Shown piece after piece: positions 1-49,847 of a DNA stretch of 64,000 nucleotides. Location: positions 11,445,206-11,509,205 of the forward strand of contig OZ038453.1 of assembly GCA_964036195.1 (NCBI GenBank). The letters are read 5' to 3'. The stretch is from Sphaerolaimus hirsutus. Lineage: Eukaryota; Nematoda; Chromadorea; Monhysterida; Sphaerolaimidae. How positions within the stretch are numbered: the first letter of the stretch is position 1; each line of letters opens with the position of its first letter. The translations under genes and the position numbers were made by a program. A model generated the notes under the pieces. The model had not been told where the DNA came from. It made no database searches and was given only the letters and a program-made list of their open reading frames with translations.

Positions 1-2940
1 CACCCAATCAGGTGTAGGGAGGGGCATCCAAACAGGATATGTGGCACCGTCAACCACATGTGAATTCCATTTCTTTTACAGAATATGCAATTCACAAACA
101 TCCTATTTCTTCTGCCAGCCCCCCAAGTGAATTGAATGGTTTCTTGGAGTAGACCATGTCTAAACCATAACCAGGCCAATTCCTTACTGTACAATGTTTT
201 TGGATTGATAGGCATCATACCCAAGCCGTTGTACCGTTCCCCACGCACCTTAGACACATGTATGTCACCCAGGCTTTTGTCTTCCCAGGATTTTTCTTTA
301 CATGTAAGTTTAAGTCCCTTTTTACTCAGTAGAGGATTAAGATCCCATTCCTTTTGAATTTTCACTTCATGCCCTACAGGACTGTTCTGGCGTTTTTGAC
401 CATTTCGTAACGTCTGCCAGATAGCCGCAGCTTCCGCAGTCGTTTTACTGACAGATACCCCCCTGAGATACCTACTATGGCTAATAACGAGCTTATTATA
501 AGCTCCCTTAACAGTAGTAAGATCCCCTTCTATGGCAAGTATTCTGCTACTGACCCACATTGGTGCCTTAAGGGCATGCCGAAATGTCTGCATTTGAAGA
601 CTTACGAGTTTCTTCAAATGCGATTTAGACAGCCCACTTATTTCCGCACCATAAAGTATTTTGGGCATTGCATACAGACTCCAGAGTCTGTTCGTCGCCC
701 ATAGGGGCCTTGAACTAAACTGCTGTACCTCTCCCACAAGAATCGATGCTACATGCGATCCCTGTACAAGGCTGTCCCTATGCAGTTTCAGACTGTCTTG
801 ACCGGATGAAAGCCATATCCCCAGATACTTAATTTCATCCACTTCATTTATTGTCTGAACACTCTTCTGGGCATTGTATCCCAGCTTCCAAATTTTAGAA
901 GCATTTGCTCTCCGTCTGAAGTGCATTACCTTACTTTTGGAAGGATTTATTGCCACCCCCCATTTCCATGCCCATTGTGTGAACACATCCATAATCTGCT
1001 GCAAGACATCATCACTGTTTGCCAGCAGAACAATGTCATCCACAAAAAAAATGGCCGGTACATGTCTTCTACCTAAAACCGCACCGGTACCAGATTTCTC
1101 CAGATCTGTCCTCAGATCTGCCATATAAATGACATATAAGCTGGGGGATGGGCAGCAGCCCTGTCTCACCCCATTATCATATGTCATAAGATCAGATGCA
1201 AAATTGCCATATTGAATAAAACATTCTAAATTAGTGTATGTATTAGACATTGCACGCACAAATTTAGAGGTATAGCCATATGCTAAAAGTTTTTGCCATA
1301 AAAGTTCCCTTGGGATTCTATTGAATGCTTTTACAGCATCAACAAAACACGCAGATAATTTACCAGAATGTGCTAAGCATCCCTGCATTACCACGTGATT
1401 ATCTGTTGTACGACGTTTCTTACGGAACCCCCCCTGCATGTCCCCGAAGCCGTTTACGGCCTCGAATGTATCTAGGTGGCGTTTATTTAAGATACAACAA
1501 TATAGTTTCAATAGATTGCATTGCAATCCTATTGATCTATAATTGTTAACGTCGTGCCTAGTCCCCTTTTTATGCAATAATTGCAGTTTGCATATTTTTG
1601 CATTTCTAGGTATTTCCGCACCCTCAAACCAGGAGTTGAAGAGAATAGTAAGAACTCTTACCAATTCTGGTCCCGCCCCTTTAAGCATTTCATGATAAAT
1701 CCCTGTTGTTCCAGGTGATTTAGAAAGCTTGAGTTTCTTACAGGTGCACTTTACATCTATCTCAGATATCGATAGATCAAGACCATCTCTTTCAGCACCA
1801 GAGATGACGCCAGAGAGTGAAGTCGTCCTCACCGACTCCATTTCTTCCATAGGGTTGGCAGTTTGAACTGTTTTCCAAAACCCTTTCAGTACATCATTAA
1901 GTTCCCCGGAATTATTAACAGTCCCACCTCCAAGTTTTCTTAGAGCCGGATATTCTATAGCCGGCGCTCTAAACCTTTTCGCAAGGCTGTATAAATCCGT
2001 TTTAACATTATTTGTGCTCAGTTCATAGTCAAGTCGCCGCGCATTGCAATTATCGCGCGCCGTCTTTTCAGTGTTCCTAATTTGCTCCTTTAGCCCCCCT
2101 ACCATGCATTTATATTCTTGATACCCCACCTCCCCACGGTGTAATGCACGCCAGGTTCTTTGGATCTTAGATTTCAGCTCACAAATTCTTACTTTCAATT
2201 TGTCAACTGACTGCCTACTTCCCCTTTTCTTAAAATGTGCTAAGGCTGTACTTTGAAAGAGAGGTAAAAGTGTTCCATATGTACAATTTTCATACGCAAC
2301 AGATGATAGCACTCTCTTAATAGCCTCACTAAATGGTGCAACTTTTTCTTCTCCACTCACACACCATTGAATTAAATTTACATTGCGTTCAATGCTGTGA
2401 GAGTTCCATTGTGGCGTAAAGAGCACATGTAATCGTAGAGCTGAATGATCCGACATGATTGCATGCGGACTATCCCTGTCAATATGTTCGAGATAGATAT
2501 CTTGAACATTGCTCTTTTTGTACAAAGTTAGGTCCAATAGTGATGATACGGCCCCTGAGAAATATGTATGGATATGGCCTTTTTGCGGTATGGCTACTGA
2601 TAGTTCATTCAGTTCCGCAAGTGCATGAATCAGCCTACCATTTGAATTAATATCCCCCGAGTTGCCATCTAACCCTGGCAGTGTGTTACCTATATGCCCA
2701 TTGAAATCACCAATGAGGATGTATGGAGTATTGTTCCTGTCATACTCAGCGCACTGTTTACCTAATGCAGCAATAATTTCCATATTTTCTGCCTGCGCCC
2801 TTTCATCCCGCTGCACCTTTCCCTGGTCGTGTAAATATACGACGCCAATAAAACAATGATGGTTTTCCCACATACATTTGACCCACAGCACATTAGAGGT
2901 GGTTTCCCAGATCCCCCACCCGTAATTACGGCTTGTATAC
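1..2940 (-). CDS. Endonuclease C-part and reverse transcriptase frame, incomplete at window edge
   Basis: One minus-strand frame has no stop from 2940 to position 1, about 979 codons; I walked it codon by codon. It carries the end of the endonuclease, an SPGTTG block near 1710, the RT A-box FVDAVKAF near 1330, the catalytic FVDD box near 1045, and a CxxC...HxxxxC zinc knuckle in the last 40 residues before the edge. The endonuclease N-part lies in another frame (2762-3370), so one frameshift falls between about 2860 and 2940. The rest is open, so the copy may be young. The product would nick DNA and reverse-transcribe the element RNA by target-primed reverse transcription (family knowledge). 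Confidence 0.85.
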
Positions 2941-3370
2941 TGTCAGCTGTGTATATGGCAAGACCTCCCGTCCCTTTTTCGGGACATGGCGTTATATTCA
3001 GAGTATACCCCAGAACTACCGGTAACCCCAAACGTGTTTTTGCCCCAGTTTCACAAAGCGCAATGACATGTGCCCCCAAGCTGCAAATAGTTTTCACCTG
3101 CTCATGTTTATTTCTCAGTGTATTTACGTTCTGAAAGTAAACATGTAATGCATCTGACCTAGATGCAAAAGATCTACATGCAGGTTCAATTGTCATTTCC
3201 CTTTTTGACTGTATATCTGACATTTTCTCGCTATCTACGCAATTACGACTTTCTTGTGACTTGCCAAAACCGCTCTCGGAACCACCCACTCTGTCGGTGG
3301 CAATACTTGCAATTCGCGATGGATTATTGCCTACCATACAAACCTTAGGGCACAAGATTGATTTTAACAA
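2762..3370 (-). CDS. AP-endonuclease N-terminal part of the LINE ORF2
   Basis: The 202-codon frame has a hydrophilic leader of about 75 residues, then endonuclease block I (FQNVNTLRNK) and the catalytic glutamate segment (VIALCETGAK). It continues as far as a CGSNVCGK stretch and then goes out of frame. The rest of the domain, including the GDFNGHIG and SDHSAL blocks, is in the overlapping frame ending at 2940. A single indel explains the break. The start at 3370 is the first in-frame candidate and lies 110 bp after the end of the preceding frame, so ORF2 would be translated separately or by reinitiation. Confidence 0.75.
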   Translation of the reverse strand: MLKSILCPKVCMVGNNPSRIASIATDRVGGSESGFGKSQESRNCVDSEKMSDIQSKREMTIEPACRSFASRSDALHVYFQNVNTLRNKHEQVKTICSLGAHVIALCETGAKTRLGLPVVLGYTLNITPCPEKGTGGLAIYTADSIQAVITGGGSGKPPLMCCGSNVCGKTIIVLLASYIYTTRERCSGMKGRRQKIWKLLLH

Positions 3371-3479
3371 TGAGTCAAACCAGGCTCAACATTTTTCATA
3401 GTTTTTCACATAAACAGTTTGGAGATGATGCGACATGCGGATCAGTTGTATCAATTTAGTACATAACCAAAGCTCGAGA

Positions 3480-4769
3480 TCATATTTCATGATCACCAGC
3501 TTGCTGTAAATATGCCATACTGTCCACGCAACTCCGCAATCTGTTTTTTTTCAGCGAATTTAACAGGTTACACACATATAAAGCTGCCAGGTGCAGTAGC
3601 GTAGATACACCCAGCTTTGATAAAGTAGTGATACCGGTTAAATGTAGTGACCAGATATGTTCATTTCTTCTCGTATCATGTGCTAGTACACCTAACATCA
3701 AAATTACAAGCCACAATAACATAGCAAAAAAAAGAAAATAACTCCTTTCTCCGCCACCTCCTAGCCACCTAAGTGTTCCCCCCGAAGCCGAAGCAGGTCT
3801 TCTGCACGCTTGCCGGCATCCTAGCATGCGTTTTGCTTGGCACCGCGACCGCCATAGCCTTCGCGTGGGCTGCCACCTCTGCCGCCGCAAGAACCGCCCA
3901 AATACGGTCCCCCGGTGGGAGGAGTGGGCAGCCAGGCCCAAGTCCCATTTTTGTCGGATCTGCGGTAGCATTAGTATGTTGCCCAAGTTATACGTTCTAA
4001 CTTTACGCAACCTAACGCACACTTTGTGAAAACTACTGTATACCCATTGAAACAGTAATCTTTGGGTATTCCCTTTTACCCCACTTTTTTTCAGTGCTGC
4101 TAGTATGGATACACCCCATACACACGCCCCAAAAAGTAGCAGAATGCTCAAAGAAATCCCTTCCATTCCCAACCCACCCTTGTGGCGGCTGGTGGAAGGC
4201 GCCTCGGTTGAACTTTGGCCCGCCCCTATTAAAAGGCTGCCCGCCTCCTCGGTAGCCCCGATTTCCACGTCCGGCGCCAGAGCTGCTTGCGCGGCCGGAA
4301 CTGTGCTGGGAGCCAGGACTGCCGCTACGGCCTCGCTGGCCACCTGAGATGTATTTCGATGGTACAATATTTGGTCACATTTATATCCCCACCTGTACAA
4401 GGTGTCACATAAAATGTACCTTGTCCGCTGGCTCCATTTCCCCCGCCAGTATCCGCTGCTCCACCGACGTCGGCCCTGGCGCGTTTTTTGACCCGTGGCG
4501 AGTCCGCCATCTGAGTTGGACATATAGTTAGAGTATCGGATCTGATATATCGTCCTACTTTGGCTAGAATCAGCACACCTGTTTGCGCTCACTGCCCCCA
4601 TCTTGTCAAGCGCTAGCACAACCTCGCGCGCCAAAAATCTACCTAGCGAGCTCTCCCCGAACACCGTCAGATGAATCCCATCGGCTTTTGGGACCGCCGC
4701 GTACACATCCATGCTGCGTTTCGGTCTATCAATACCGATCATAATCCGCCAGTTATGGTAGCAGAACAT
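3480..4769 (-). CDS. SGNH-hydrolase-like C-terminus with long overlapping tail
   Basis: This is a 429-codon frame. Near its start it has ADGIHLTVFGE followed by a helix (LGRFLAREVV), which fits the last SGNH/GDSL block (DxxH) of LINE ORF1 esterases. The GDS block is missing because the element is truncated. The remaining ~380 residues run open through DNA that, in other frames, encodes spliced RGG exons (4510-3821). They also run through both intervening AT-rich stretches, and end in a hydrophobic segment (about 3780-3660). Whether the tail is a real protein or a consequence of GC-rich DNA is uncertain. The same overlap occurs in the plus-strand element at 30225-30766. Confidence 0.6.
   Translation of the reverse strand: MFCYHNWRIMIGIDRPKRSMDVYAAVPKADGIHLTVFGESSLGRFLAREVVLALDKMGAVSANRCADSSQSRTIYQIRYSNYMSNSDGGLATGQKTRQGRRRWSSGYWRGKWSQRTRYILCDTLYRWGYKCDQILYHRNTSQVASEAVAAVLAPSTVPAAQAALAPDVEIGATEEAGSLLIGAGQSSTEAPSTSRHKGGLGMEGISLSILLLFGACVWGVSILAALKKSGVKGNTQRLLFQWVYSSFHKVCVRLRKVRTYNLGNILMLPQIRQKWDLGLAAHSSHRGTVFGRFLRRQRWQPTRRLWRSRCQAKRMLGCRQACRRPASASGGTLRWLGGGGERSYFLFFAMLLWLVILMLGVLAHDTRRNEHIWSLHLTGITTLSKLGVSTLLHLAALYVCNLLNSLKKNRLRSCVDSMAYLQQAGDHEI
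3821..4510 (-). CDS. Spliced RGG-box protein of the minus-strand LINE (three exons)
   Basis: Three minus-strand exons join in phase: 4510-4420, 4343-4178 and 3959-3821. The first begins with ATG (MADSPRVKKRARADV) just after an AG. It ends ACAAG|GTACAT. The second follows ATCTCAG and is dense in RGG/RG motifs (RGNRGYRGGGQPF, FNRGGPKFNRGAF). The third follows TACCGCAG, contains GGRGGSPREGYGGRG, and stops with TAG. The introns are 76 and 218 nt. RGG boxes bind RNA, so this is probably the element's RNA-packaging protein (inference). An upstream exon may exist, and the first ATG may not be the true start. The matching phases and continued RGG repeats are the main support. Confidence 0.6.
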
Positions 4770-4789
4770 AGTTCAGCGTACAGCATTTC

Positions 4790-21165: not shown

Positions 21166-21968
21166 CACAAGTATTTATCTTTGTCTAGCACAGCAGAAAC
21201 CACAGCTACAGAGCTGGTAAAAGAAAAAAAAGTTCGGTACTTTTAACAACTCTGCCCTGTTCTAATATAACACAATTGTTTTTAACGTGTGTTCTGCGTT
21301 TCCCGGGTAACAAACCATAGCTTTTGTAATTTACGTTGTCTATATTTCGAGGGGGAGTATTTCGAGGGAGGGGGTATTTCGAGGGAAGGGGGTATTTCGA
21401 GGGAAGGGGGTATTTCGAGGGGGGTTTCGAGGGAGGGTATTTCGAGGGGGGCTTTTTCGAGGAAATCCGGTGAATTCCTTCTGTTTGTCAGGGCATATGA
21501 TAGCGATAGGTGGCTTGTGTGGTTATGCAGTCAAATCCGGTTGAAAAAAAAAAAAATCGAGAAAATTGATTTCTCGGTACATCTTAAAAACGACTGTGAA
21601 AGCTGACTGTGGGACTTACGGTACGTTTGCTGTGCATCGGCATCTGCCTAGCGGCATTACAGCTACGTTCACACTATGTGGACGTCGGTCCAGTGCACAA
21701 TAAGCACTCACGCCATGATTTTTATATCTTGGCAAGGGGCCAATTTGATGGGGTTACTAGCCACACTAAGGCTACGCACCGCCTAAACATTATTTGGATA
21801 CAAACTCCATGGAAAGCGACTGACAATATTAGACAATATCTATATGTCAGCATCACGGTCGCAAATGAGTCCAATAATCTCATAACAGCAACAGTAAATG
21901 CTGACATGTATGAAAACAACTACATACAATGCTGTGAAAAACTTATGAAACGACAATATACACGTGGG

Positions 21969-23010
21969 CAGGGTTGGTTTTATAAAAATTCATTTTAGTA
22001 AAATTGTATAAAAATTGTATAAAAATTTTATTTTATTTTAATTTTATTCTTGTTTCATTTTATTTTATTTTATTTTATTACCAAAAGTCATTAATAAAAT
22101 AAAATGACACATTTTACAAAAATTTTACAAAAATTGTACAAAAATTTTACAAAAAATCAGAAACATGCATGCAAGGCCAGAAAAATGTTATAATTAGGCC
22201 TATACATGAAAAACCTGTGACAAATTTTTCCCTTTCTTTTCAAAAGTTGCATGCAGTATGTATTGTTAGCTAGCTGCAAGTGTAAACTTACAATTATTGA
22301 TAAGAATGGTTTGCATTTTCAGTAGAAGGACTACTGGAGTGTGCTTGGCACATTTGTAAAATGTCATGCAAAGTGTCAATTGTCATGACAAATGTAAAGT
22401 AAAGTATCAATTGTCATGCAAAATGTCAAGTGTCATGTAAAATTTCAAGCACAGTGGCAATTGTCATGACAAATGTCATGCAAAGTGTAAATTGTGTATC
22501 GAAATCTTGTGTTTTTGTATCCATATTATGTTTTATATCCAAGTCTTATGTTTTTGTATCCAAATGTTCACATAAGATTTGGAGTCAACAACAACATAAT
22601 TTGGATACAAAACATAAGATTTTGAAATAAAACATGAGATTTGAACACAATTTGCTTGACAATTGATACTTTAATTTTTACATGTCATGACAATTTACAC
22701 TTTACTGTACATTTGTCATGACAATTGACAATTTGCATGACATTTTGCAATGACATTTGACACTTTACAATGCTTGGGACTGCCCCCAGATCCATGAAAA
22801 AACAGGTAGAGACTCAAGCAATGAGACAAAATTTTACAAAAAATATGAATTTTTATACAATTTTACAAAAATTTTACAAAAATTCGAATTTTTATACAAT
22901 TTTTATTTTTATTCTTAAATTTTCCATTTTATTTTATTTTATTTTATTCTTGAATGTTCCATTTTATTTTTATTTTATTTTTATTTTTTTCTGAGATTTT
23001 GCCAACCCTG
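21969..23010. mobile_element. hAT-type element (CAGGGTTGG...CCAACCCTG) with perfect 8-bp TSD
   Basis: Ends are CAGGGTTGGTTTT and AAAATCTCAGA-type sequence to CCAACCCTG on the other side. The octamer CACGTGGG is identical at 21961-21968 and 23011-23018. The interior is AT-rich 'ttttatttta' and contains a family-A MITE at about 22345-22775. It lies 150 bp upstream of the TATA box of the RGG-protein locus. Confidence 0.88.
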
Positions 23011-23162
23011 CACGTGGGCAACTAACTGCGGCTACCTGCCATTTCTGGTCGATTAATGTACAACTGTTTCCTCGCAAAATTAAAAACAATAAAAAAAAAA
23101 AAATAAAATCGATACGTTCAATTGTCGACGTTGACGCCAGGGTCAACGACGTTCCTGGGTGG

Positions 23163-23168
23163 TATAAA
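23163..23168 (+). promoter_or_regulatory. Candidate TATA box of the RGG-protein locus
   Basis: TATAAA lies 31 bp before ATG 23199. An inverted repeat GTTGAC/GTCAAC lies just upstream (about 23130-23150). Transcription starting 25-30 bp downstream of the box would give a very short 5' leader. Confidence 0.4.
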
Positions 23169-23198
23169 CACGGAAATTTGGTGGAACGAAGATTTAAA

Positions 23199-26100
23199 AT
23201 GGTTAGACGAAAGAGGGATTTTCATATTAATGTAAATAAGGACTGCTGCATTTGGTATTGGGGGGGGTCAGAAACTGAAACTATATTATACGATGTGATT
23301 TTCTTACAATTAGAAAATATGAGTACGAAATTTATACATTGGGTACAATTATTATACAACAATGTTTTTTTTATATTTCCAGGAACGTGAGGGCACCCCA
23401 ATCTCTGCGTCGGGACGATCTCAGGCGCGCAAAGCGAAAGATGTGGCCTCTCTAAAGTTGGTATCTGGGAGTGCCAAAAGGGAATCTCAGAAATCGAAAA
23501 ATCGACGGGCTGGGACAGTTTCTGAAAGTGCGGTTGATGGGGACTCATCTGGTTTGGGGGCGCAATTGGAACAGTTGAACTGTGACAGTTTGAAGGGGGG
23601 ATTACCGAGATCTGGAACTTTGCCAAATCTACTGTGTGGTAAGTGCTACTCGGTTAATGTATACGCGAACATTATTCTGGGGGATATTTACGAATACAAT
23701 AGGGGTTCAATAATAGCCAAAAGTTTGAAATGGTATATAAGTATGTACGTTGCTGAATGTATAGATATAAAACTATCAACGACGGTAACGAAATATATGA
23801 ATAAAATAAATGCAGATGTGAATCTAGCGGCGGAACTAGACGAAGGTGAAGATGACGGTTGTGCGACGCCTACAGTCCCTGGCAACGAGCCAACTCCGCT
23901 AGTTGTTGCTAGCGTCACCACCGAGATGCAGACCGAGGCCGTACAGAATCCTGGGGTGGGATTCGACCCTGAGGAGGTGATTGCCACGTACGCGAGCAGC
24001 GGTGTGATTGAAATGGATACTGGTATCCAAATCAGTCCCGACACGACGAATTGTCGCACTGTACGCGACCTGGCTGATGATTTGAGTGAGTTGTCGATTT
24101 TGACTGTTTGTCGAACTCTGATTTTAGACTTTTCAAATCCATACCGGATAAACATGGATATAATGTGGGAAACGGCAAATAATTATAATGGAAAATCTCA
24201 TTTTGATGGGATTAAAGTTGCATTTTTGACTCATACATTTCAAAATAGGTATATCCGGCACGGTGCCAACTGTTCTGTGTTAACTCTAAAGACTGCCACA
24301 TATTTCACAGATGTGGTGAACGTAACGCCGATTCTCAATGTGGACAGCGTCACCTGCATGGCGGGGGCGGGCAAACTTGTGGGTGACACCCACTTGCACC
24401 CATACGAGTACGCTTTGGCCATGCAGCGCAAGATGGAGGAAAATCCCACGGGCACTCCAAATGGGTCTGAAGTGGGTCAGCTATGTGCGCTGGTCAAATT
24501 GATGGAGGAAAATCATCAAAAAACGTGCGAGTATATGAAGCGGGTTAGTAAATGCATACGGGTTGGGGGAATATTAAATGTCACATCTTGGACGTCTAAA
24601 ATATCGAATACGTATAGAAAACCAAATGTAGTAAAGCCATACCTATTTAATTATATCTTCCCATACACAAAAATCAAACAAATTGTTGTACTAGATACTA
24701 AATCAGTGACGGACACTAACAAATATATATGCATAAAATCATTGATCATCTGTCCTACGCAGTTGGAAGTGGCCTATGCCCAATCATGTGGACATCTGGA
24801 CAATCGAATCGACGATTTGATGCTAAAACTGTCCGGCCTAGACGTTGATAAAAGCGCGCTGGAGAAAAGGGTTGATGGAGCGATTAAAGTTAGTCTTTGG
24901 GGCAAAGTACTACTGTTTGAGGGGGTGGAAAATAAATTATTAATAATTCCGGTATATACTGACACACCATTTCCTGGTGTACTGATAATTAAACGAATTT
25001 TAAATATTGTAATACAATTTAGCTACACTAACTACGTTTTAAATGTAAACACAAACCACTTTCAGAATATGAGCGCACAAGATACAACAGTTTCCGACTG
25101 CAAACGCCGTCTGCTGGCGTTGGAAATGGGCCAGAAGACACCGACAGCTGGAACCCCCCCGGTATTCGATTTGGCCAGCGACGAAACCCCGAAAATGGGA
25201 GCGGTAAAGCGGCGCCTCACGGATAACACACAAAATCAGGGTAAAATGGCGAAAATGGCGGTCAAGCCAGGCCAGGTAAATCAACGGGTGGTCAATCTAT
25301 CACTTTTTATGAGGAAAAACCGCAATATGGATACTTGGTCATATAAATCTACCTGTATGCAATATCTGGCTTCCATTGGTACATATACGGAGGTTTTTAA
25401 GAGTGGTCAAAAACACAAGATCGTAAACAAAAAGTTAAATGCAACTTTAGATGCGTACATATTTATTATGTTTTACAATGTTCAAAAAATAGGTGTACGC
25501 AGAGACATATATTATAGGTACAACAAACACATACATCAAAGTAGACAATTTTTGCAGTGCACGATTCCGCCCACCCCTGCACCTGGACAAAACGTGGTGG
25601 CTACTGTGGCGCCGAAAATCGAAAGCGATATCGTCATCTCGCTGATGGATCCGTCCGATCCCTTTGGAGGATACTACCCCTGGCGGGTCAAACTCGACGG
25701 CATAAAATTTGATTGTCTACTGACCGCCATGATTTATGTGAGTGCCTTTGAACGATTACTTATAGGAATGCCAAATAGTTACAAACATATTGATAAAGAA
25801 AAATTCCGCATTCTTTCCGTGTATAGACATGTAAATAATTCTACGTTTTGCTGTAACCAAAGTGTACTAGAAAACTGTAAATTTAACATTAAATACGAGC
25901 AATTGTCAACTTATGAATTGATCTGTATCAATAATAACTATCTAAATATCACCCAGGCCGAAGCAAAATCCACGGCCACACACACGCTTACCAGCATGGC
26001 GATGAATTTGCACCAGCTATATTCGAAATTGGCACCCGGGAAGGATTTCGACCCCGCCTTTCATGAATTCCAACGTGGCGCCCGTCGCATCTGGGGATTG

Positions 26101-29100
26101 GTACGCAAACACGTCATGGACCACTCCCTAGACATCTCTGCGAGTTGGTTCAAATCCGACAACGGCCGCGAAACCGAACCATTTGGGCTATATGGCTCTT
26201 TGACCGAAGCAAAAGAAACGGTGGCGTACGAAACACTCAAGGCCATCATTCAAAATGCTGTCGACTGTAACACGGGCTTCCGGTGGGTTATTATTGTTTG
26301 TAGACATTTGAGACTTGCGCTAATTCAGACTTTGAATCTTGAAATATATATGGAAGCTTGTTGGCAAAATGCCAAACATCAAGAAATTACTTATAAATGT
26401 TTGTGGCGTACGGCTGAGATAACAAAATATAGGGATACATATTGGCTAGATGCCAATCGCTTACAGGTGGTACACAACTATCTGCAACGCATGACAAAAC
26501 CGATTAAGTTTAATTCCTCAGCGTATGCAATGAACACAAGTATATTGACAATCACAACCCCTCACAGACAAATTCTGTGGTCATCTGGGCAAAGAAAAAT
26601 CGACGGGGTCTACGTGAGCACCGGGCGTCAGATTCGCTGTGCCGGCGAAATTCCGGCCAGCGGCTGGAGGGGAGCTTTGATGTGCGGCGCAAACAAAGGG
26701 CGCTATGAGGTAGGGTTGACCTCTTTTGACTTATCCGATTTTTTTAATATAAACCTTGGAAACATTTGTCTGCCTTGGCACACGGCCAAATACCTTGGTA
26801 AGGCGGCCATTAGGCTATTAAAGTACGCGGTGCGATACGAAAATGTATATTGCTATTTTAAAGATTACTGTGAAACCAATATACAAGAAAATAAAAATAG
26901 ATATTTAGAACAAACCCCCTACACACAGTGTGCGCTCCCCACCAAGGATGGAGCCTACTACATGGCCCCATTCATGAACCTGTACGGCGAGGCGCTGATG
27001 GAAGTGCGAGCCAAAATTTCAAAGGAAATGGCCTTCTCGCGCCGTGCGTCCAATGGCGAATTGGTGCCAATCGAAGACGGGGAAATGTTTCGCCAGTACG
27101 ACTCAGAAGGCCACTTCGACGGAATGGACAGGAAAAAAGTTTACGCGAAACTACAGCAGAAGCTGCTAGCGCCCGAATCCTACAAAGTGGAGGTGAGTAG
27201 GGGCCAATTGATCTGTATGTTACTTGTGTTACCTTCTATTGAGTTTAATCGAGAAATAATCAATTATTTGAGCGTTTTTACGCTTGCTGACAAGTTGTCT
27301 AGAAGTGTTGATGATATCAAGTGGGTGTTGTCCAGAGGTGCTCATACAATCAACGCAACACACCTTGAAATATATATGGACGTAAAAAAAGTTGCGATTA
27401 AGAATACATATCATGCAATCTCACAGTTGTCTAGAGGGGCTAATGAACTGAGATGGGTGTTGTCTAGAGGCATAGTAGCAAAAATACAGAATAAGCGTGA
27501 AATTTATAGAATATTTACTTTGCAAGACCCATCTGACTTAGAAAACATGTTGTCTAGACGTCATGGTTTCATGGAAAAATATTGTTCGACGATTCTGTTA
27601 TTCAGAAATGTTCTCAATATGAAATCGGTGTTGTCTAGAGATACTTATTTAAGTAAGACGGTAATAAAATTCAATAAATCCGAAATAATTATCGAACTTG
27701 TGGATAAGTATTATCCAAATATGCTAATGATTAGTGATGCACTTCAGATGGATAGCTTGTTGTCTAGAGGTACTCCTGAAAATAAATTCAAGATGATATT
27801 ATATCTCAAAACATACAAAAATACTGATACTTATGACTTTTTAGATAAATATCTTTTGAATACACTGTTGTCCACATGTGTTCTTGATATGAAATTGATG
27901 TTGTCTAGAGGTACTCCCGGAAAAAAATTTTTATTTTTAGCGCAAAAAAAACGATTTATGCCTGTGTAATGCATACACGAATGTATGAGCTAACTTCAAT
28001 ACTTTTACAGGCCCGTCGAATGGCGGCGCTTCGCAATGGCTGGCAAAATGCGGAAACGGAAACGACGGCGCAACCGGAAGCCCAGCCAGCACCACCGAAT
28101 CAATCTGTACCGCGCGGACGCGGCTTTTCTGGTTTTCGAGGGCGTCAGCCGTACAATGCTCGTGGTCGCGCCCGAGGACAATTCCTGGCACAAAGGGGAA
28201 GCTTCGCTGGTAATTTAGATGTGCTTACTACAATCTACATCCGCCGAAATAAAGGTGTATTTAGAATTAAGTGGATATTTATTCAGGACAGGGTTAAAAA
28301 GGTGAAGACAATTGCTATCGATGATTGGTTAAAAGCGATAATCAAACTCTACCATCTATACAATTTTTTTATCCGATACTATATTACATCTTGTCAATCC
28401 CCTGACGCAGGCAGGGGCATTAGCTCAACGAACCAGGGGCAGCGCACGGTGTACGACCTAACGCAAAATGTCCTGCAGTTTGAACCAGAACCCTTGACGG
28501 AAGCGCGCATCGGAGTGGAATCGACTATGGCGAGCGCCAATACCCAAGGTACTTTTCCTATACTCATTCGAAACACTTTGGGAATGTACTGTCGGCAACT
28601 TTTACTGTCAAAGAAATACTATCAATACACTATAGGTAATATCTCACTAATAAATTTTTACACTTACCATACAGCCAGTTCAAGTGACGCGCCGCGTAAC
28701 GTCGGTGGCGTCAACGCGCAACAACTTTCGAATATCCTGGCGCAACAGCAGACGCGCAGTGGACAACAGCTAGTAGATGAGGACATCGTGTCAGATGACG
28801 ATGATTTCGACAACATGCCAAGTAGGTTTCTTGAAAAAAAACGATTTTGGATGCTTCGACGAATGATAGATAAAAAGACGCTTAATATAAAATGTAAAGT
28901 AATTAAAAAGTACATACTAGCACAAGAAGGCACACTTTGGCACATACTCATAACACCATATCAAATGTCAGCAATCAATATTTCGAACATCCCCATACCA
29001 TCTAAAAATGTAGCCCTCAATATAACAAATAACTATAATATGCATGCCATTCCAGACGCGGTGACGTCGACCATTGCCAGGGCGACCAGGACCGGTGACA

Positions 29101-30326
29101 GCAGCTACACCGGCGTGGCACAGGTAAACTATCCTGGACGCATAGGATGCAAATTGGTGAAAGAACTCTTTTTTAAACAGGTGCGCACGCGCGGTCGCGA
29201 GTTGCCAAGATCGATACACTGCCGGCAACTACTTTTGTCTCATCTGGAAAAACAAAATTCGATAAAATGTGCAAAGTCACTGGGCAACTTCTTGCAATCG
29301 CACTTGTACTACCCAGAAGACACCATGATTAGAGACAAAGCGTTTGGCACAAAGTGCCACGCTATCAATGGCATCTTACGGCTGCTGAATACGGGCATTA
29401 ATATGGGGCCTTTGTGTGGTTTTCGACCGTCGGACCACACCCCAGTGACAACGCAGAAAATTTCGTTGCCCACTGAACCTGCCTCCGATCCTTACGCTTA
29501 CTTTTATACGGTCATGATTATCGGTGATTCAACTTGTGGCTCACTCTACAACATGTTGTCTACCGACTGTGCCACTGCAAAAATGCCCGTTACCATTCAC
29601 GGGAGTAAAAGCTTGTTTTCTGGGCGCCGAATGAACACTTTTTGTGCGGGTATTATTGATGTGAAATTTACTACTGTATACGACATGGTTGTTTTGCGCT
29701 CTGTACTGAATGCCTGTGACGCTGAATTATTTGAAGCGTGTGTTTTTGATGCTAAGGGTGTTGATCTGTTTTTTTGGATGGCGTTAAAAAACATGTTGAT
29801 TTTATCCAATCGAACAAATCGTTGAAATTGCAGCCGTTTGGTAAAATTGTACTGAGTATTGTTGGCCCCACAATGCCTATGAGCTTTTCGAGTAGCTGGT
29901 CAATTGCGAGGGTACAGGAAACGTACTTGTTTTTGTACACATTAGAAACAGCCCTCCATAACATGGTTACTTGCAGTTTAGAAAACGTTGTGGTTTTGCG
30001 GCTATTTGACTATTTAGAGCACAATTTTGTGGCGCTGGGCTTTGATAGTAAGCTAGATGCATTTTTGGCAATGATGACCAAGGACGGCATGCATACGTCG
30101 GAAAATGGCAACCGCTTGCTGTGCCACTTGCTTAGAAAAGAGTTGCTTTTGATGTCGGTTACTGATTGTTACTGGAACATAGAACCTATCTTTTGGCAAC
30201 CATCCAATTACTTTTGCATCTCAGGCGCGAGGCGGCCAAGCGGCAGGACGAAACGCCAGCGGCACAGGACACGTGATACCCGGCCAATCCCCGCTCACAA
30301 ATCATTTCCAGCGTTTGCGCAAATAG
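23199..30326 (+). CDS. RGG-box RNA-binding protein, 15 exons, 897 residues
   Basis: Exons: 23199-23231, 23383-23638, 23816-24085, 24311-24543, 24763-24888, 25066-25275, 25558-25737, 25957-26282, 26568-26709, 26929-27192, 28011-28209, 28411-28548, 28675-28821, 29056-29123, 30225-30326 (TAG). Every junction is GT-AG and in phase, and the total is 2694 nt. The start is basic (MVRRKRDFHIN) with TATAAA upstream. Order: basic/serine-rich (to ~100), acidic, coiled-coil-prone (~250-330), a folded-looking centre (FGLYGSLTEAKETVAYETLK; FHEFQRGARRIWGLVRK), a basic region, RGG repeats (PRGRGFSGFRGRQPYNARG), and a final RGG exon. I recognise no family. An RNA-binding, capsid-like role is inferred from the RGG tail and the adjoining retrotransposon enzymes. 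Introns are AT-rich and mostly stop-free. It could instead be a host gene with a LINE behind it. Confidence 0.7.
27193..27969 (+). CDS. Read-through C-terminus in intron 10 with repeated LSRG motif
   Basis: The intron at 27193-28010 (818 nt) is not a multiple of three, unlike the other large internal introns. If retained, the exon frame continues 258 codons to TAA 27967-27969. That extension has nine copies of a TTGTC(T/C)AGAGG-like sequence in the same reading frame, near 27296, 27328, 27426, 27459, 27549, 27630, 27759, 27867 and 27900. They encode units such as IKWVLSRGA, LRWVLSRGI, MKSVLSRDT and MDSLLSRGTP, each ending a predicted helix. The repeat looks like a helical solenoid, but I cannot assign it. 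It would give an alternative C-terminus without the RGG box. Confidence 0.55.
   Translation: MSRGQLICMLLVLPSIEFNREIINYLSVFTLADKLSRSVDDIKWVLSRGAHTINATHLEIYMDVKKVAIKNTYHAISQLSRGANELRWVLSRGIVAKIQNKREIYRIFTLQDPSDLENMLSRRHGFMEKYCSTILLFRNVLNMKSVLSRDTYLSKTVIKFNKSEIIIELVDKYYPNMLMISDALQMDSLLSRGTPENKFKMILYLKTYKNTDTYDFLDKYLLNTLLSTCVLDMKLMLSRGTPGKKFLFLAQKKRFMPV
27967..27971 (+). promoter_or_regulatory. TAATG stop/start overlap
   Basis: TAA closing the 23362-27969 frame shares its last A with the ATG opening the 27969-29825 frame. UAAUG is used for termination-reinitiation in some non-LTR retrotransposons (SART1) and some viruses (established). Its use here is inferred. Confidence 0.45.
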
Positions 30327-30766
30327 AAAACAGGTGTATGAAATTTAGGTTTTTTGGCGAATGGCCAAGTGTTTGGATGTTTTTTTCTCTCGTTGATGAT
30401 TGGAGTCATTTTTTTTCTGTGAATGGTGAACGAGAAGAACTCACTTATGTTTTTTTGAATTACACACTTAGGAAAGATAGTTCGCTGGCGTCACGAGATG
30501 TGAAATCTCGAGATACACTAAAAATGCTATCTGCACACCTTGCAAATACTGTTACAAAGAACATAATTGATGACATGTACTTCAAAGAAATATGTAGAGA
30601 ATACGCCATTCTTAAAACAGAAATTGATAAGAACTTTTTGAAATTTCGCATCTCATGTCCGTATACTAAGGGAAAATATGAGTTATGCGTTTATACTCTG
30701 ATAGAAAATGGTGTTCGTCGATTTAATTGTGAACGTTTGTGGGAATCTCAATATTTTTTGCTTTGA
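29124..30766 (+). CDS. SGNH/GDSL hydrolase-like domain across two frames
   Basis: Intron 14 of the RGG gene (29124-30224) continues the exon frame to TGA 29823-29825, with the SGNH block-I signature VMIIGDSTC at 29514-29540. The -1 frame then takes over. It contains KIVLSIVGPTMPMSF and the last SGNH block DGMHTSENGN at 30083-30112, about 186 residues after GDS, a normal spacing for this fold. The frame continues across the last RGG exon in a different frame and ends at 30766 with a lysine-rich tail. LINE ORF1 proteins of CR1/L2 type carry such esterases (family knowledge). The middle block is atypical. The two halves overlap at a slippery heptamer. A simple one-base indel is the alternative. 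Confidence 0.6.
29786..29792 (+). promoter_or_regulatory. Candidate -1 frameshift heptamer A AAA AAC
   Basis: The zero frame reads TTA AAA AAC, so the heptamer fits X XXY YYZ exactly. The -1 frame continues at CAT GTT GAT and stays open to 30766. The zero frame stops 31 bp later. I did not find a convincing downstream pseudoknot by eye. Confidence 0.45.
30754..30760 (+). promoter_or_regulatory. Candidate -1 frameshift heptamer T TTT TTG
   Basis: The frame ending at 30766 reads TAT TTT TTG CTT TGA, so the heptamer is correctly phased and the stop follows two codons later. The -1 frame continues GCT TTG AAT and is open to 31029. Confidence 0.4.
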
Positions 30767-31029
30767 ATTCGAATAGTTTTGCTCTTTTTGCCTTTTTTGA
30801 TCACTTGCATGCGAGAAAACAATATGATATGGTGAATCGTTTGTTTTTACGAATATCAAACGACTACTCTATCGATTATGGCGAATACATGACCAAAATT
30901 AACACCTGTCGAATCGACTTACTACAATTATTACTGACTTTTGACAAATTGATTTTTAAAGTGGCTATATCTATAGCGTTGTTGAATGTTTGCACAAAAA
31001 CGCAAATACTAGTTCACTTTTACTACTAA
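30760..31029 (+). CDS. Short open frame linking SGNH and endonuclease/RT frames
   Basis: This -1 frame is open for 89 codons after the second heptamer and ends at TAA 31027-31029. The sequence is hydrophobic/aromatic then helical (LFAFFDHLHARKQYDMVNRL). No family is recognised. It is in the same frame as the endonuclease/RT ORF, whose first ATG pair is 19 bp after the stop, so reinitiation or read-through is possible. It may simply be a degraded stretch. Confidence 0.35.
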   Translation, partial: ALNSNSFALFAFFDHLHARKQYDMVNRLFLRISNDYSIDYGEYMTKINTCRIDLLQLLLTFDKLIFKVAISIALLNVCTKTQILVHFYY

Positions 31030-31047
31030 CTGGTGCTAATATTGGTC

Positions 31048-34000
31048 ATGATGTTTTTTACAAAAATAAACGGTGTTACCAATTTTCATGGCTCTATCGA
31101 CCACAATGAGTGTTTATACTCTATACCACTACTAATACTGTATCAGAATGCTAGATATTTGCGGTGGAAAAAACCAGAACTACTTGCTACCATTTTAAAT
31201 ACTGGATGCGACATAATGTGCTTCGTTGAAACACATTTTTCCTGCATAACGGAAGCTATCACCCTACCTGGTTATACTGGGATACACACTTTCAAAAAGG
31301 GAACTGATGCTGGTGGTATCTCGGTGTACATAAAGCGTTCACTTAAATTTACAAATATAGACTACACCAACGAAAACAATATAATGGGGGTTCTAATACA
31401 TACATGTAAAGTAAAAATTAATATAACAACATGCTATCTGTTTAACAACTCTAAAGCAAAAAAGTCAAAAAGAGTTCTCGATCTGAATGAGAGAATTTTA
31501 TTAGAAATAGGTACAAAAATGTCTAACTTAGATGAGAAAGGCTATCCTTCCTTGATTCTGGGGGACTTTAACGGGCACATTGGCAATGATGAACTGGGAC
31601 TAGAAGGAAATAATGGATGTGTAAACGAAAATGGTAAGTTAATTAGGGATTGGCAAGCAACATATGGTCCATACTTGATTAATAAAGATTTTACGGAACT
31701 ATGGACTTATGAAAGAAGTAATGCAAAATCAGCTATAGACTTATGTTTTTCAAATCGTGAATTACCACACATGTCAGGCTGGATAGACAACACGGGCAGT
31801 CAGTGCCCATTGGCATCTGACCATCATGCAATCTTTGTGAAATATCTTTCTCCCCATGAGTTTCAAAAACCTCCAGAAATTCAAAATACAAAATTGAACA
31901 AGAATGAACTACTGTTGATGAATAATAAACTGAGTGAGATTGAACCAACAGATTATAATGATATCATTTCAACCATTCATGACACCTGTAGAGTGATCAA
32001 AAATGAAATTGGTCAAACCCATAGCAAAATGCTGCCACACCCAAGAGTTAGTAAATGTATAATAAAATTACATAGAAATATAGCCAAAATTAAAAGGAAA
32101 ATTCGCGCACAAGGCAATAATGAGATGCTACGGAAAGAATTGAAAATATACCAACACAAATTAGGAAAAGGAAAAAAGGAATTGAATAAACTTAATAAAG
32201 ATAAAGAATTAGAAAAGATGTACAATAATAAACCAAAAGAATTAAATATGGTATATAAACATATAAATAAAAATTGGCATAACAAGAGACATACTACAGA
32301 AATGACTGATAAAAAAGGAAATATAATAGAAAGTCAAGAAAAAATGAATATGGAAATGAAACGAGTATGGGGGAATATTATGACAAACAATCCAGGATCA
32401 CCTACCTATCACCCAATTGAAAACATTGGACTCTCTCCAGGCACACAAGAAGAACTCAAAATAGAATTTTCATTTGAAGAACTTAAAAAAGCTATAAAAC
32501 AACTGCAAAACAATAAATCACCCGGGACAACGGGTATACACCATGAAACAATAAAAATGCTTCCAAGCAACTATCTTATGGCTCTACTCGACATGTATAA
32601 TAGATGGCTTAATGGGGTAGAAATTCCAATAGAAGCAAAAATATGCAAATTGGTATTACTACACAAGAAAGGGGACAAATCCAAAATGGATAACTACAGA
32701 ACTTTAGGTATATCATGCAATATAAAAAAAGTATACATGATATTGTTAAACAATAGGTTAATTAAAGTAGCAGAAAATGAAGACATTTTTACTGAATTAC
32801 AGGGGGGATTTAGACCAAATAGAAGGACATGTGACAATGTCCAAATAATTAATACATGCTATAACTATGCAACTGCTAATGGAAATGACTACTTTACATG
32901 CTTTGTAGATGCAGTAAAAGCTTTTGATAGGGTAAATAGAGACAAACTATGGAAAAAGCTTTTGGATTTAGGAATCCCTTCTAAACTTGTTTCAGCAATT
33001 TCACAAGCATATACTAACATTAAAGTCAATATGACATATGGGGACTATATAAGTGAAGATTTTGGCTATCCAATAGGGGTGGCACAAGGTTGTGCATTAA
33101 GTCCTACTCTATATGCACTTTATATGCACGACTTAGCCAACGAGCTCACAAAAACTGGGCAAGGTGCCAAATTAGGTAAAGGACAGGCCAAGCTACCAGC
33201 CTTATTCTTTGCAGATGACATTGTCCTAATGGCTAATACAGCCTCTGAACTTCAAGACCTGATGACAAACTTTACTGAATGGTCATGGAAATGGAATATC
33301 ACAATAAATCAGAATAAATCCTATATACTGAGATGGGGTAAAAAACAATTGGGACGTTCTTGGGCATTGGGATACGATAACAATAAGAAAATAGGGCAAA
33401 TATATGAATGTAAGGAAATAAAGTACCTCGGGGTAACAATAACTGAGGATGTAAGTCCATTTAAGACACACATCAAAAACTGTGTAGCCAAGATGCTTAA
33501 ACATAGCACACTGGCCATACTTTCATCAAGGAATACAACCAAACCCATGTTGTATGCTAAGATGACTTTTAAATCATACATAGAACCAGCGAGCATGTAT
33601 GGGTTAGAAATTACAGGTGCAGATAAAGAAAGTCTCAAAAAAATAGACAGAATTTATATGAGTACGATGAAGCGAGCACTGCACCTTCCCACATCAACAA
33701 GCACTGCAAGCCTATTAGTTGACCTTGGTGGTGAACTTCCCTCAGATAAATATAAACAAATGACAATAACATTTTCAAACTATGCTAATAAATTGGATGA
33801 TAACAGGTTGCTTAAGAGAGCTATGGAAATAGATAAATCCCTAATAGGAAATACACGCATTAAAGCTCACATGCTGATGCATAACAGATACTTATCCAGT
33901 ATACAAGATACCAACATACCTGGGGAACATGCAAGAATTTTAACCAAAACAAATATTAAATTGGCTATATACCAAAACAGGCAAGCCATATCAGTAAATC

Positions 34001-34368
34001 AAATGAGAGACCAGAATGTAGCTCAAATTAGATCAGATGTTGGAAAACAAGCACATCCTAGCTACCTGCAATATAACCAGTTGACATGGCTTGCGGCAAG
34101 ACACAATTCCATACGACAACATGGACCTAAAGGCCGGAAAATTTGTAAATTATGCAGTTCATCCTATGTAAAAATACCTTGTACAGTTACCCATTTACTA
34201 TACATCTGCCCGGGCTTAAATTCAGAAAGGGCTGAGTTACTACATAGAAAGTGTGTATCTCAATGTAGCCAAACCGGTGATTGGCTTATGTACAAAACCT
34301 GTGCACAACACAGAAAAATGGTAAATGATATGTTAAAACACGGAATTAGGCACTTTATGAGTGACTAG
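31048..34368 (+). CDS. LINE ORF2: AP-endonuclease plus reverse transcriptase, intact
   Basis: An uninterrupted 1106-residue frame from the first of two adjacent ATGs. The endonuclease occupies roughly residues 25-265: QNARYLRW, CFVETHF (catalytic Glu), LILGDFNGHIGN, and SDHHAIF near its end. A lysine/asparagine-rich linker follows. RT (~residues 480-790): SPGTTGIHHE, LLHKKGD, QGGFRPNRR, A-box FVDAVKAFDRVNR, GVAQGCALSP, the catalytic FFADDIVLM and KYLGV. A CxxC...HxxxxC knuckle (KLCSSS...HLLYIC) is near residue 1040. Family role: nick target DNA and copy element RNA at the nick. The order and SGNH association suggest CR1/L2-Jockey-like, not certain. It is AT-rich like the neighbouring introns. 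With every motif present, it may be active. Confidence 0.93.
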   Translation: MMFFTKINGVTNFHGSIDHNECLYSIPLLILYQNARYLRWKKPELLATILNTGCDIMCFVETHFSCITEAITLPGYTGIHTFKKGTDAGGISVYIKRSLKFTNIDYTNENNIMGVLIHTCKVKINITTCYLFNNSKAKKSKRVLDLNERILLEIGTKMSNLDEKGYPSLILGDFNGHIGNDELGLEGNNGCVNENGKLIRDWQATYGPYLINKDFTELWTYERSNAKSAIDLCFSNRELPHMSGWIDNTGSQCPLASDHHAIFVKYLSPHEFQKPPEIQNTKLNKNELLLMNNKLSEIEPTDYNDIISTIHDTCRVIKNEIGQTHSKMLPHPRVSKCIIKLHRNIAKIKRKIRAQGNNEMLRKELKIYQHKLGKGKKELNKLNKDKELEKMYNNKPKELNMVYKHINKNWHNKRHTTEMTDKKGNIIESQEKMNMEMKRVWGNIMTNNPGSPTYHPIENIGLSPGTQEELKIEFSFEELKKAIKQLQNNKSPGTTGIHHETIKMLPSNYLMALLDMYNRWLNGVEIPIEAKICKLVLLHKKGDKSKMDNYRTLGISCNIKKVYMILLNNRLIKVAENEDIFTELQGGFRPNRRTCDNVQIINTCYNYATANGNDYFTCFVDAVKAFDRVNRDKLWKKLLDLGIPSKLVSAISQAYTNIKVNMTYGDYISEDFGYPIGVAQGCALSPTLYALYMHDLANELTKTGQGAKLGKGQAKLPALFFADDIVLMANTASELQDLMTNFTEWSWKWNITINQNKSYILRWGKKQLGRSWALGYDNNKKIGQIYECKEIKYLGVTITEDVSPFKTHIKNCVAKMLKHSTLAILSSRNTTKPMLYAKMTFKSYIEPASMYGLEITGADKESLKKIDRIYMSTMKRALHLPTSTSTASLLVDLGGELPSDKYKQMTITFSNYANKLDDNRLLKRAMEIDKSLIGNTRIKAHMLMHNRYLSSIQDTNIPGEHARILTKTNIKLAIYQNRQAISVNQMRDQNVAQIRSDVGKQAHPSYLQYNQLTWLAARHNSIRQHGPKGRKICKLCSSSYVKIPCTVTHLLYICPGLNSERAELLHRKCVSQCSQTGDWLMYKTCAQHRKMVNDMLKHGIRHFMSD

Positions 34369-34550
34369 TGTTAAATTACATGCTGTCAGTGGCACTTTAC
34401 ACGTGCACTTTACTACGAGTGATGATTAATGGCTGGAAAGCGTCCCAGCTACACACTTAAGTATCGTGCATGTGAAAAATGTCCTTCATAAATGTGAAAA
34501 ATGTCCTTTATAAATGTAGGTGTTAGAAGCAATCGAAACTTATACATCTT

Positions 34551-34556
34551 AATAAA
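34551..34556 (+). terminator. Polyadenylation signal AATAAA after the LINE ORF
   Basis: AATAAA lies 183 bp after the RT stop codon, in non-coding sequence. It is the best candidate for the 3' end signal of the plus-strand element. No poly-A or tandem tail was seen after it. Confidence 0.45.
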
Positions 34557-34980
34557 ACTGGGTTGTGAGGATAATATTGCTCAACCCACAGGACAACTCG
34601 AGAGTTGCGTACTCTCCTATCTGCTGCTGGAAAATGGGTAAATACACCACAGTAGCAATCTCGGTCGCGTCGCGCGCCAATACGTGATCAATCTCCATTG
34701 GAGCGGGCTGTAATTCGAATATTCTTATTTAAGGTACTAGTAGGGCTTTTGAGTACAATTACCCATACCTTTAGTACACAACCACTTGTGAAGTCGATTG
34801 TAGGGCCACTGATGAGATGTAGAGAAATGTACAAGGAGGACACATCGTTCTCTTTGTGCAACGGGACTATCCTGTAAAAATAACCAACGGGGTTTTTCTT
34901 TCACTACATCACTATCGAAATCTACCATTAAAAAATCTCCCTTAAAGTAGGAAAGAAAGGTGGAAAACGGTACTTACCTG

Positions 34981-35171
34981 CCAGGCACTCCCAAATCGAT
35001 CATTTTGAACACGCCCTCTCGCAGACTACTGGCCAAGTCGAGCTCGTGCTTGAATTGGTACTGTACGACGCGTTGATGGACATCGACGATGGTAGAAACG
35101 TGCCGTGTGCGTGAAGAACCGTACACCCGAAGGCAGACCACTGGGCAACCAATTGCCAATGGGGATTCCAT
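34981..35171 (-). CDS. Possible first exon of an unidentified gene
   Basis: On the minus strand, ATG 35171 (context AAAATGG) opens 64 codons ending at a near-perfect donor CAG|GTAAGTA. The composition is more GC-rich than its surroundings. The peptide has regular alternation (VVCLRVYGSSRTRHVSTIVD; ELDLASSLREGVFKMIDL) and looks like real protein, but I recognise no family. The plus strand is also open here and offers an AG at the same place, so the strand rests mainly on the strong donor. Further exons would lie at lower coordinates and were not found, possibly because of the element insertion. Confidence 0.4.
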
Positions 35172-35827
35172 TTTACTTGTGTCTTTTTACATCTAAAACT
35201 GTTCTACTTCAACAACTCCCGTAATATATATACCCTTCCAATTCTACATTCATTCCAAACCCATATAAAAATACCACTTTACATTCATCCCAACCCACAT
35301 AAAATACATTGAGGAAACCATTTGACAAATCATTTATTGTAAAATCACCTTCATTTTCGCACAAAATACTTACAAACAACCATTTACGTGCAATTTTAAA
35401 CAAAGCCATATGCGTAAAAGAATTTATGCGATATCTCTTGCAATAGGTATATGTTTCACACACTACGCTGTAATAAATCACAATCACTTTTTCAGGTGTG
35501 GAACGACTTGTGCAGCGGAAAGAGGGAACGGCATGTCGACACCAGGATAGCCGTGGATAAGTGAAATGGAAAAAAAATATCCAATCCCAAATAATATCAT
35601 TGTATTGTGTATTGTAATCCCCCTCAGTTATAGTAAACACCTTCCCGGACAAGTTCACCACCCATTTTTTTTTTCACTATGAATGCAATATCTCCGTCCA
35701 TGGGGGCGTTATAAGGCTGAAACTTTGTATATATTAAGTTGTACAACCCCCTTACTCCCCAACAATGGGGGGAGGTGCGGCGACTCACTACAGGGTGGGT
35801 CGCCCTATATGCAAAAAAAAATTGTGG

Positions 35828-40430: not shown

Positions 40431-41035
40431 ACCTATAGAAACATGAGAACCTGCGCCTCAGTGCATGTAAACTCTGAGGGCATGTGACTCTCAGTGCACG
40501 TAAACTCCCAGTGCACTTTAACTCACAATGCATGTAGACTCTCAGTGCACGTAAACTCCCAGTGCACTTTAACTCCCAATCCATGTAAATAGACTCTCAG
40601 TGCACGTAACCTCCCAGTGCATGTATGGAGGGTACAAACCCCTGGAGGGGTCCAAATACAGTAATCCGCACCACACAACAAACAGGGTGAATACATGCAC
40701 TGAGAGTTCACATGCACTTGGAATCTACATGCACTGAGAGTTTATGTGTACTGGGAGTCTACATGCACTGGGAGTAAACCTTCACGGACTGGGAGCCTTG
40801 ATGCACTGGAGTTGATACTGAGAGTTTCAGCCAATCAGGACACTTCTCAATATTCTTTTCTTTTTAAATACCCAGGTATTTTAGAGGTATTTTACGTTTC
40901 AGTAGAAATACTCAAAATCTGGAAAAGGTATTTTGAAAACTCTGCTCGATGCGTGACTCCTACATCAAGAATATGTATTGTATCGGTCTGTGTTGGGCAG
41001 GTTTTATGAAGTTTTGGTAGTTGACAAAAATGGGC
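40431..41035. repeat. 17-bp-unit satellite composite, copy 2 (short)
   Basis: Same left flank and right flank as copy 1. It has only about nine units before the 'ggagggtacaaaccc' centre, and the inverted arm at 40695-40800. Array length differs strongly between copies. Confidence 0.88.
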
Positions 41036-49846: not shown

Positions 49847-49847
49847 A

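Follow-up and report, generated by a model that had tools for sequence, protein, structure and literature searches.

A giant LINE family in the nematode Sphaerolaimus hirsutus with translatable introns and a probable splicing switch

A 64,000-nt window of the Sphaerolaimus hirsutus genome (C4:11445206-11509205; assembly of 348 Mb in 762 contigs) contains a degenerate copy of a giant long interspersed nuclear element (LINE) of the APE type, hereafter the focal copy. Its first open reading frame (ORF1) is divided by about 15 introns and is followed by an endonuclease and a reverse transcriptase (RT). In this family we find splice sites, introns that are stop-free and a multiple of three in length, a frame switch at the last intron, selection on the spliced frame, openness of the unspliced sequence, and one copy that has partly lost its introns. 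We consider it probable (about 0.82) that these features belong to a giant LINE family that uses intron retention as a translational switch. A preliminary description of the locus had proposed one retroelement whose splicing makes a packaging protein and whose unspliced RNA encodes endonuclease and RT; the sequence strongly supports this, and the combination recurs genome-wide.

Under the proposed mechanism, removal of about 15 introns would yield a stand-alone ORF1 protein with an RGG box, SGNH motifs and a packaging role, and removal of the last intron, whose length is one more than a multiple of three, would bring a short conserved tail and then a stop codon into frame. The unspliced transcript would serve both as the template for new copies, as the inheritance of the introns implies, and as an mRNA. 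With upstream introns that keep phase and lack stops, and with a last exon and following spacer that can be read in the other frame, unspliced RNA would let ribosomes continue from ORF1 through the introns into the endonuclease-RT, which would then act on the RNA that encodes it. If the enzyme acts in cis, only copies with translatable introns and spacer would spread; such cis preference has been described for human L1 (PMC10830420). What we infer from the DNA is that the animal splices and translates the RNA in this way, with cis preference as the selective cause.

Copies of the element and their translatable introns

Other copies were obtained through an RT protein search of the same genome, which returned 1327 candidates, 41 of them scored. 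Frames of at least 3000 codons were reported for 18 of the 41 scored loci, and the reported lengths agreed with the fetched sequence for the six intact copies checked. The first nine regions fetched were mostly picked because a long frame was reported, and the next nine (L028-L036) were picked otherwise. One open frame, of 3397, 3453, 3526, 3531, 3683 and 4061 codons, respectively, spans six of the first nine copies; the frame is broken in the remaining three (C13a, C15a and C6c). Of these, C13a (C13:10210909) is the sister of the focal copy.

This comparison bears on the way in which the focal copy had been read. The five unspliced frames of the preliminary description (23362-27969, 27969-29825, 29774-30766, 30739-31029 and 31048-34368) do exist, and had been joined by a TAATG overlap, the motifs A AAA AAC and T TTT TTG, and a 19-bp gap. 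In the focal copy these motifs do occur with the right phasing, and C13a offers no counterpart for the break around 30.75 kb, but we regard a chain of TAATG reinitiation and programmed -1 shifts as hardly credible, given the six copies with a single frame. The TAATG and A AAA AAC joins belong to three focal breaks that differ from C13a by a single nucleotide (8 T against 7 T in C13a near 23365; one base more in C13a near 27948 and near 29773), and in relatives the A AAA AAC site is read through (...LDGVK) without a change of frame. The T TTT TTG break (30739-30766) falls where the similarity to C13a stops (30763), and the stop at 31027 is a further break. The chain is thus best read as one decayed frame, in which decay is a possible origin of the T TTT TTG break.

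The copies also bear on whether two unrelated units have been run together. The exons are host-like, GC-rich and bounded by host-like splice sites, as expected of an intron-bearing host RGG gene lying beside, or captured by, an unrelated LINE. Against this, the order ORF1-SGNH-endonuclease-RT occurs in one frame in the six checked copies and is reported at more loci, and the element ends are common to copies. With this combination found again and again in the genome, a LINE that merely has a host gene as neighbor is an extremely improbable explanation.

From the ATG at 23199, the focal exons joined at GT...AG form one open frame. All 15 introns were chosen by their GT-AG ends, and all coincide with switches between GC-rich and AT-rich sequence (exons mostly ~50% GC, introns ~33%). 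The in-phase RGG protein of the preliminary description is borne out, with the chain running past its 897 residues to 1078, as it extends into the SGNH exon as far as the break. Among the 14 introns upstream of the SGNH exon, 12 are multiples of three and stop-free in the continuing frame (chance probability of at least 12 of 14 being multiples of three, 8e-5), and both other forward frames of the same 12 contain stops. The two exceptions, of 151 and 818 nt, measure 150 and 819 nt in C13a. Overall, the focal introns contain one in-frame stop, versus a mean of 87 after base shuffling (minimum 60, 2000 shuffles).

The same pattern extends to the other copies. Introns F/G, G/H and H/I were compared in 16 copies (nine, and seven of a further nine), leaving aside L029 and L030, in which exons F-H were not found, and C15a, which is without upstream exons. 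The 48 introns include 46 with a length divisible by three, 45 of them also lacking stops; those out of phase are C13a H/I (217 nt) and L032 G/H (620 nt, 18 stops), and the L034 F/G intron is in phase with one stop. G/H lengths vary yet remain multiples of three (183, 186, 198, 237, 276, 285, 285, 339 and 819 nt in nine copies). The C13a introns carry one stop where drift would be expected to produce 12.8 (never fewer than 2 in 5000 simulations); the H/I intron of C13a has also lost 2 nt. As a control, a host CCT gene (L042) has three of eight introns in multiples of three, and all eight carry 2-12 stops in the continuing frame. Stop-free introns as a host-wide trait were considered and rejected: listed frames of up to 1050 residues had hinted at it, but this same gene, once fetched, has no forward frame above 135 codons, and frame lengths listed for such gene-family searches were not relied on.

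Openness of the introns is not accompanied by conservation of what they would encode. Between the focal copy and C13a, substitutions at the three codon positions number 14/1184, 7/1184 and 89/1183 in exons and are flat in introns (92/1126, 104/1124 and 94/1125), i.e., introns drift at the third-position rate of the exons without amino-acid constraint. By blastn, C13a matches 3348 of the 3390 focal intron bases, C15a 41, C2a 39, C6c 38, and C9a and C6b none; of the 3186 focal exon bases, 2922 are matched in C2a, 2890 in C6c, 214 in C6b and 92 in C9a. Exons of C9a and C6b thus give few DNA matches, and their homology is visible at the protein level.

Splice sites are retained throughout. Focal exon ends were projected onto nine copies by protein alignment, counting only ends aligned within one residue: donors were GT in 62 of 65 cases and GC in three, and all 76 acceptors were AG. 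Intron M/N is GC-AG rather than GT-AG in C15a, C6c and C1a.

The last intron, the ORF1 tail and a copy with lost introns

The last intron directly follows the SGNH exon, is 52-76 nt long and has the donor ATGTNN/GT. Its length is 1 mod 3 (52, 55, 58, 61, 64, 67, 70 or 76 nt) in all 20 copies considered (ten, L037 and nine more), a count that is not blind, as acceptors were picked by the tail produced. Independent of that choice are the conserved tail frame and the C/TAG at its start, in the identical shifted frame every time. The preliminary description had placed SGNH on unspliced RNA only; it lies instead in a conserved exon common to both forms, and it is the last intron (30158-30224) that separates them.

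Spliced tails end, for example, in QSPLTNHFQRLRK, RTLTQHFARQLNQD, TLPLSQHFARQQ or RSITSFLEKRD. The core [LI][ST]x[HYF][FL] is present in 20 of 20 tails, with a leading Q in some only. This recalls the PIP box, whose consensus is Q-x-x-[LIM]-x-x-[FY]-[FY], and the tail resembles the PIP boxes of DNMT1 and DNA ligase I. A PIP box is present in ORF2p of human L1 (PMC10830420). Across ten codons around the core, pairwise differences at the three spliced-frame positions were 0/6/52 of 100 in a group of five copies, 10/11/32 of 60 in one of four and 36/14/164 of 280 in one of eight (17 of the 20; C6b, L032 and L037, whose tails are shaped differently, are omitted), which indicates selection on the spliced frame.

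Unspliced, the tail exon is open in the other frame, which continues through the spacer into the endonuclease-RT frame. The spacer (294-1479 nt) is stop-free in that frame in all nine copies besides the focal one, and the unspliced frame is open to the end of the locus in eight of the nine further copies (L030 is broken). A second related element on the minus strand of the window is arranged alike, with an SGNH end, an 82-nt intron (1 mod 3) and RGG exons.

In one copy, L037 (C13:26518001-26527000, minus strand), exons G, H and I follow one another directly, joined precisely where splicing was predicted; its F/G and last introns are kept. Both the G/H and H/I introns are present in L038, aligned base by base to L037, and in the translations of L039-L041, where they are open and in frame; exon G of these four copies is 68-80% identical to that of L037. 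As the other two copy groups have introns at identical places, we read L037 as a case of intron loss rather than of gain elsewhere, most simply as the product of reverse transcription of a partly spliced RNA. Matches outside L037 that seem to span junctions were set aside, as their coordinates suggest alignments running over into introns.

Together, the splice sites, the tail and L037 speak against the view that the AT-rich segments are never removed and simply separate the parts of a giant polyprotein. That these segments are in frame and translatable fits this view, but GT or GC donors and AG acceptors occur at all projected ends, the tail is conserved in the spliced frame only, and two segments are precisely absent in L037, leaving a never-spliced polyprotein very improbable. 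Another alternative holds that introns are kept free of stops solely to spare unspliced genomic RNA from nonsense-mediated decay, with the endonuclease-RT made in some other way. Under decay avoidance, too, copies with stops or frameshifts in introns or spacer would be at a disadvantage, and the observed absence of amino-acid constraint on introns fits it. It needs no particular frame, however, and the unspliced frame is that of the endonuclease-RT, with an open spacer, in nine of nine copies besides the focal one; as the sole explanation we therefore judge it unlikely.

Several points weigh against the translational switch. Avoidance of nonsense-mediated decay predicts much the same trace, whether as a rival or as an added force. 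Copies were taken from the best RT matches, mostly long-frame picks at first, a bias that favors open introns, and they come from a single genome and are related by descent, so that the counts are not independent. The host intron control is one gene only, the last-intron acceptors were chosen as described above, and decayed copies violate the intron rule (L032, L034, C13a and the focal copy). The ORF1 part matches no family beyond weak, below-cut-off ones. Finally, the whole case is built from DNA letters, from which RNA processing and translation are inferred.

Extent, domains and surroundings of the focal copy

The element is longer than the 23199-34368 given in the preliminary description, running from ~21543 to ~35620 with a 1.04-kb insertion in its 5' part (Table 1). 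Around this insertion, focal positions 21961-21970 are repeated at 23011-23020 as a 10-bp duplication, and its ends, CAGGGTTGG/CCAACCCTG, look hAT-like. C13a and C2a have one further common stretch upstream of 21543 that is missing from the focal copy, which may therefore be short at its 5' end; other copies may reach further 5' than 21543. Dispersed copies with a common 3' region (C13a, C6c and C15a) have a short-repeat end after the 3' similarity. No direct repeat pair was found around the element among the 20 largest repeat families listed, i.e., no sign of long terminal repeats (LTRs).

Protein identity between C13a and the focal copy is 95-100% in ORF1 exons (91% in the 11-residue e0), 79% in the endonuclease and 75% in the RT. 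Near-identity in ORF1 with only 75% in the RT indicates that one of the two is a chimera, with a breakpoint at ~30760-31030: DNA identity to C13a is 94% upstream, and RT protein identity only 75% downstream.

Table 1 Features of the focal element and its relative in the window.
Feature	Position	Strand	Basis or remark
Whole element (giant LINE)	21543..35620, ends approximate	+	5' boundary common with C13a 2430 and C2a 1799; 3' similarity to 35556
Later insertion into 5' part, 1.04 kb	21971..23010	.	Duplicated CACGTGGGCA on both sides, ends CAGGGTTGG/CCAACCCTG; absent in sister copy C13a
ORF1 exon e0, carries ATG	23199..23231	+	Spliced frame, copies
ORF1 exon A	23383..23638	+	Spliced frame, copies
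ORF1 exon B	23816..24085	+	Spliced frame, copies
ORF1 exon C	24311..24543	+	Spliced frame, copies
ORF1 exon D	24763..24888	+	Spliced frame, copies
ORF1 exon E	25066..25275	+	Spliced frame, copies
ORF1 exon F	25558..25737	+	Spliced frame, copies
ORF1 exon G	25957..26282	+	Spliced frame, copies
ORF1 exon H	26568..26709	+	Spliced frame, copies
ORF1 exon I	26929..27192	+	Spliced frame, copies
Intron I/J, 818 nt (819 in C13a)	27193..28010	+	Contains TAATG; nine TTGTC[TC]A[GC]A
ORF1 exon J, RGG box	28011..28209	+	Spliced frame, copies
ORF1 exon K	28411..28548	+	Spliced frame, copies
ORF1 exon L	28675..28821	+	Spliced frame, copies
ORF1 exon M	29056..29123	+	Spliced frame, copies
ORF1 exon N, SGNH-type motifs (GDS ... 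DGxH)	29181..30157	+	Frame broken here by 1-nt difference near 29773
Frame-switching last intron, 67 nt long (1 mod 3)	30158..30224	+	1 mod 3 in 20/20 copies (acceptors picked by tail)
Tail exon O	30225..30326	+	Spliced frame ends QSPLTNHFQRLRK then stop; unspliced frame open
Spacer, ORF1 stop to endonuclease	30327..31146	+	Mostly not conserved except last ~110 nt; broken here (near 30.75 kb, TAA at 31027)
APE-type endonuclease	31147..31866	+	Exo_endo_phos match
Linker, reverse transcriptase, C-terminal Cys/His region, stop	31867..34368	+	RVT_1 match
3' untranslated region	34369..35620	+	Similarity to other copies' 3' region
Second related element, 5'-truncated	1..4772	-	SGNH end, 82-nt intron 4592-4511 (1 mod 3), RGG exons, endonuclease-RT

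Profile searches of the 3' frame bear out the endonuclease and RT of the preliminary description (RVT_1, 1.1e-32; Exo_endo_phos, 8e-7, above its cut-off). The nearest solved relatives of the RT by sequence in the PDB are R2 (8.6e-26) and L1 ORF2p (2.5e-22), and its database relatives are all distant (34 proteins; the best E-value match is 25% identical). No integrase or protease domain was matched by Pfam in the five unspliced frames, nor was a GIY-YIG endonuclease, the APE endonuclease being present instead. GDS and DGxH are invariant in the SGNH exon of all nine aligned copies, and its profile matches are all weak: DUF459 in three of nine (best 0.086), SGNH in two (0.065), Lipase_GDSL in two (0.15) and C6_DPF in two (0.0024). 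The same exon has no PDB match below 0.04, and a 416-residue spliced ORF1 piece has zero relatives in a protein database search. A NADAR-like look of exons G-I received zero profile support.

Intron I/J contains a repeated motif, TTGTC[TC]A[GC]A, present nine times in the focal copy and nine times in C13a; TGTTGTCCA occurs eight times in the C6c intron, and repeats are far fewer in C2a. This motif may act in cis to control splicing or packaging.

Elsewhere in the window, an intronless 363-codon frame on the minus strand (10995-12086) has, by eye, a seven-transmembrane look. Tandem arrays of 17 bp (37679-38242 and 40457-40625) lie in a stretch duplicated ~2.4 kb apart with inverted pieces, and large nested inverted repeats, with arms of 336 and 302 nt that are 95% complementary, occupy 48545-49856. 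Rfam and tRNA scans of the 64-kb window found nothing. In the mitochondrial COX1 (contig C762), TGA is read as Trp; this COX1 is 89% identical to one database protein and about 64-68% to the named proteins listed, most of them from insects.

Relation to known elements and implications

The family shares SGNH-type ORF1 motifs, an APE endonuclease, an RT and a short-repeat 3' end (three copies) with CR1/L2-group APE LINEs that have an esterase (type IV) ORF1, e.g., zebrafish ZfL2-1. It differs from these in its ~15 introns, in one frame of 3,397-4,061 codons and in the proposed splicing switch. The esterase ORF1 of LINEs has been described (PMC3905857), and one account reports the type in vertebrate L2/CR1 groups only, with not a single word in its text that begins with intron or splic (PMC4120745). 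In titles and abstract openings from the open-licence PMC literature we found no LINE with introns of such kind; this corpus leaves most subscription papers outside, and so does not prove novelty.

Copia and retroviruses resemble the scheme proposed here in that a spliced RNA makes the packaging protein and the unspliced RNA is both template and enzyme source; for copia, a spliced isoform makes gag (PMC12522962). Unlike them, the family has no LTRs that we could see, APE-type LINE enzymes, and many introns that are translatable when unspliced. Penelope-like elements likewise keep introns through transposition, but encode a GIY-YIG endonuclease, and their intron retention has been explained by a possible antisense template rather than by translatable introns (PMC3846280).

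We also lean, with less confidence, towards a broader reading, that of a LINE superfamily in which ORF1 and ORF1-RT are set apart by splicing instead of by frameshifting or reinitiation; cis preference would force all introns and the spacer to remain translatable, whichever amino acids they encode. ORF1 would then end in a PCNA-binding-like tail made only by splicing of a dual-frame last exon, and the introns may disguise the element as a host gene. In human cells, HUSH silences intronless elements, and introns protect even without splicing (PMC8770142); by analogy, introns could benefit the element through protection from HUSH-like surveillance. LINEs need a full-length RNA, so introns would be expected to be lost at each round, and here many persist and are constrained to be translatable. 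The family may thus offer a natural experiment on cis preference, on the division of RNA between messenger and template, and on introns as a shield from surveillance of intronless transcripts.

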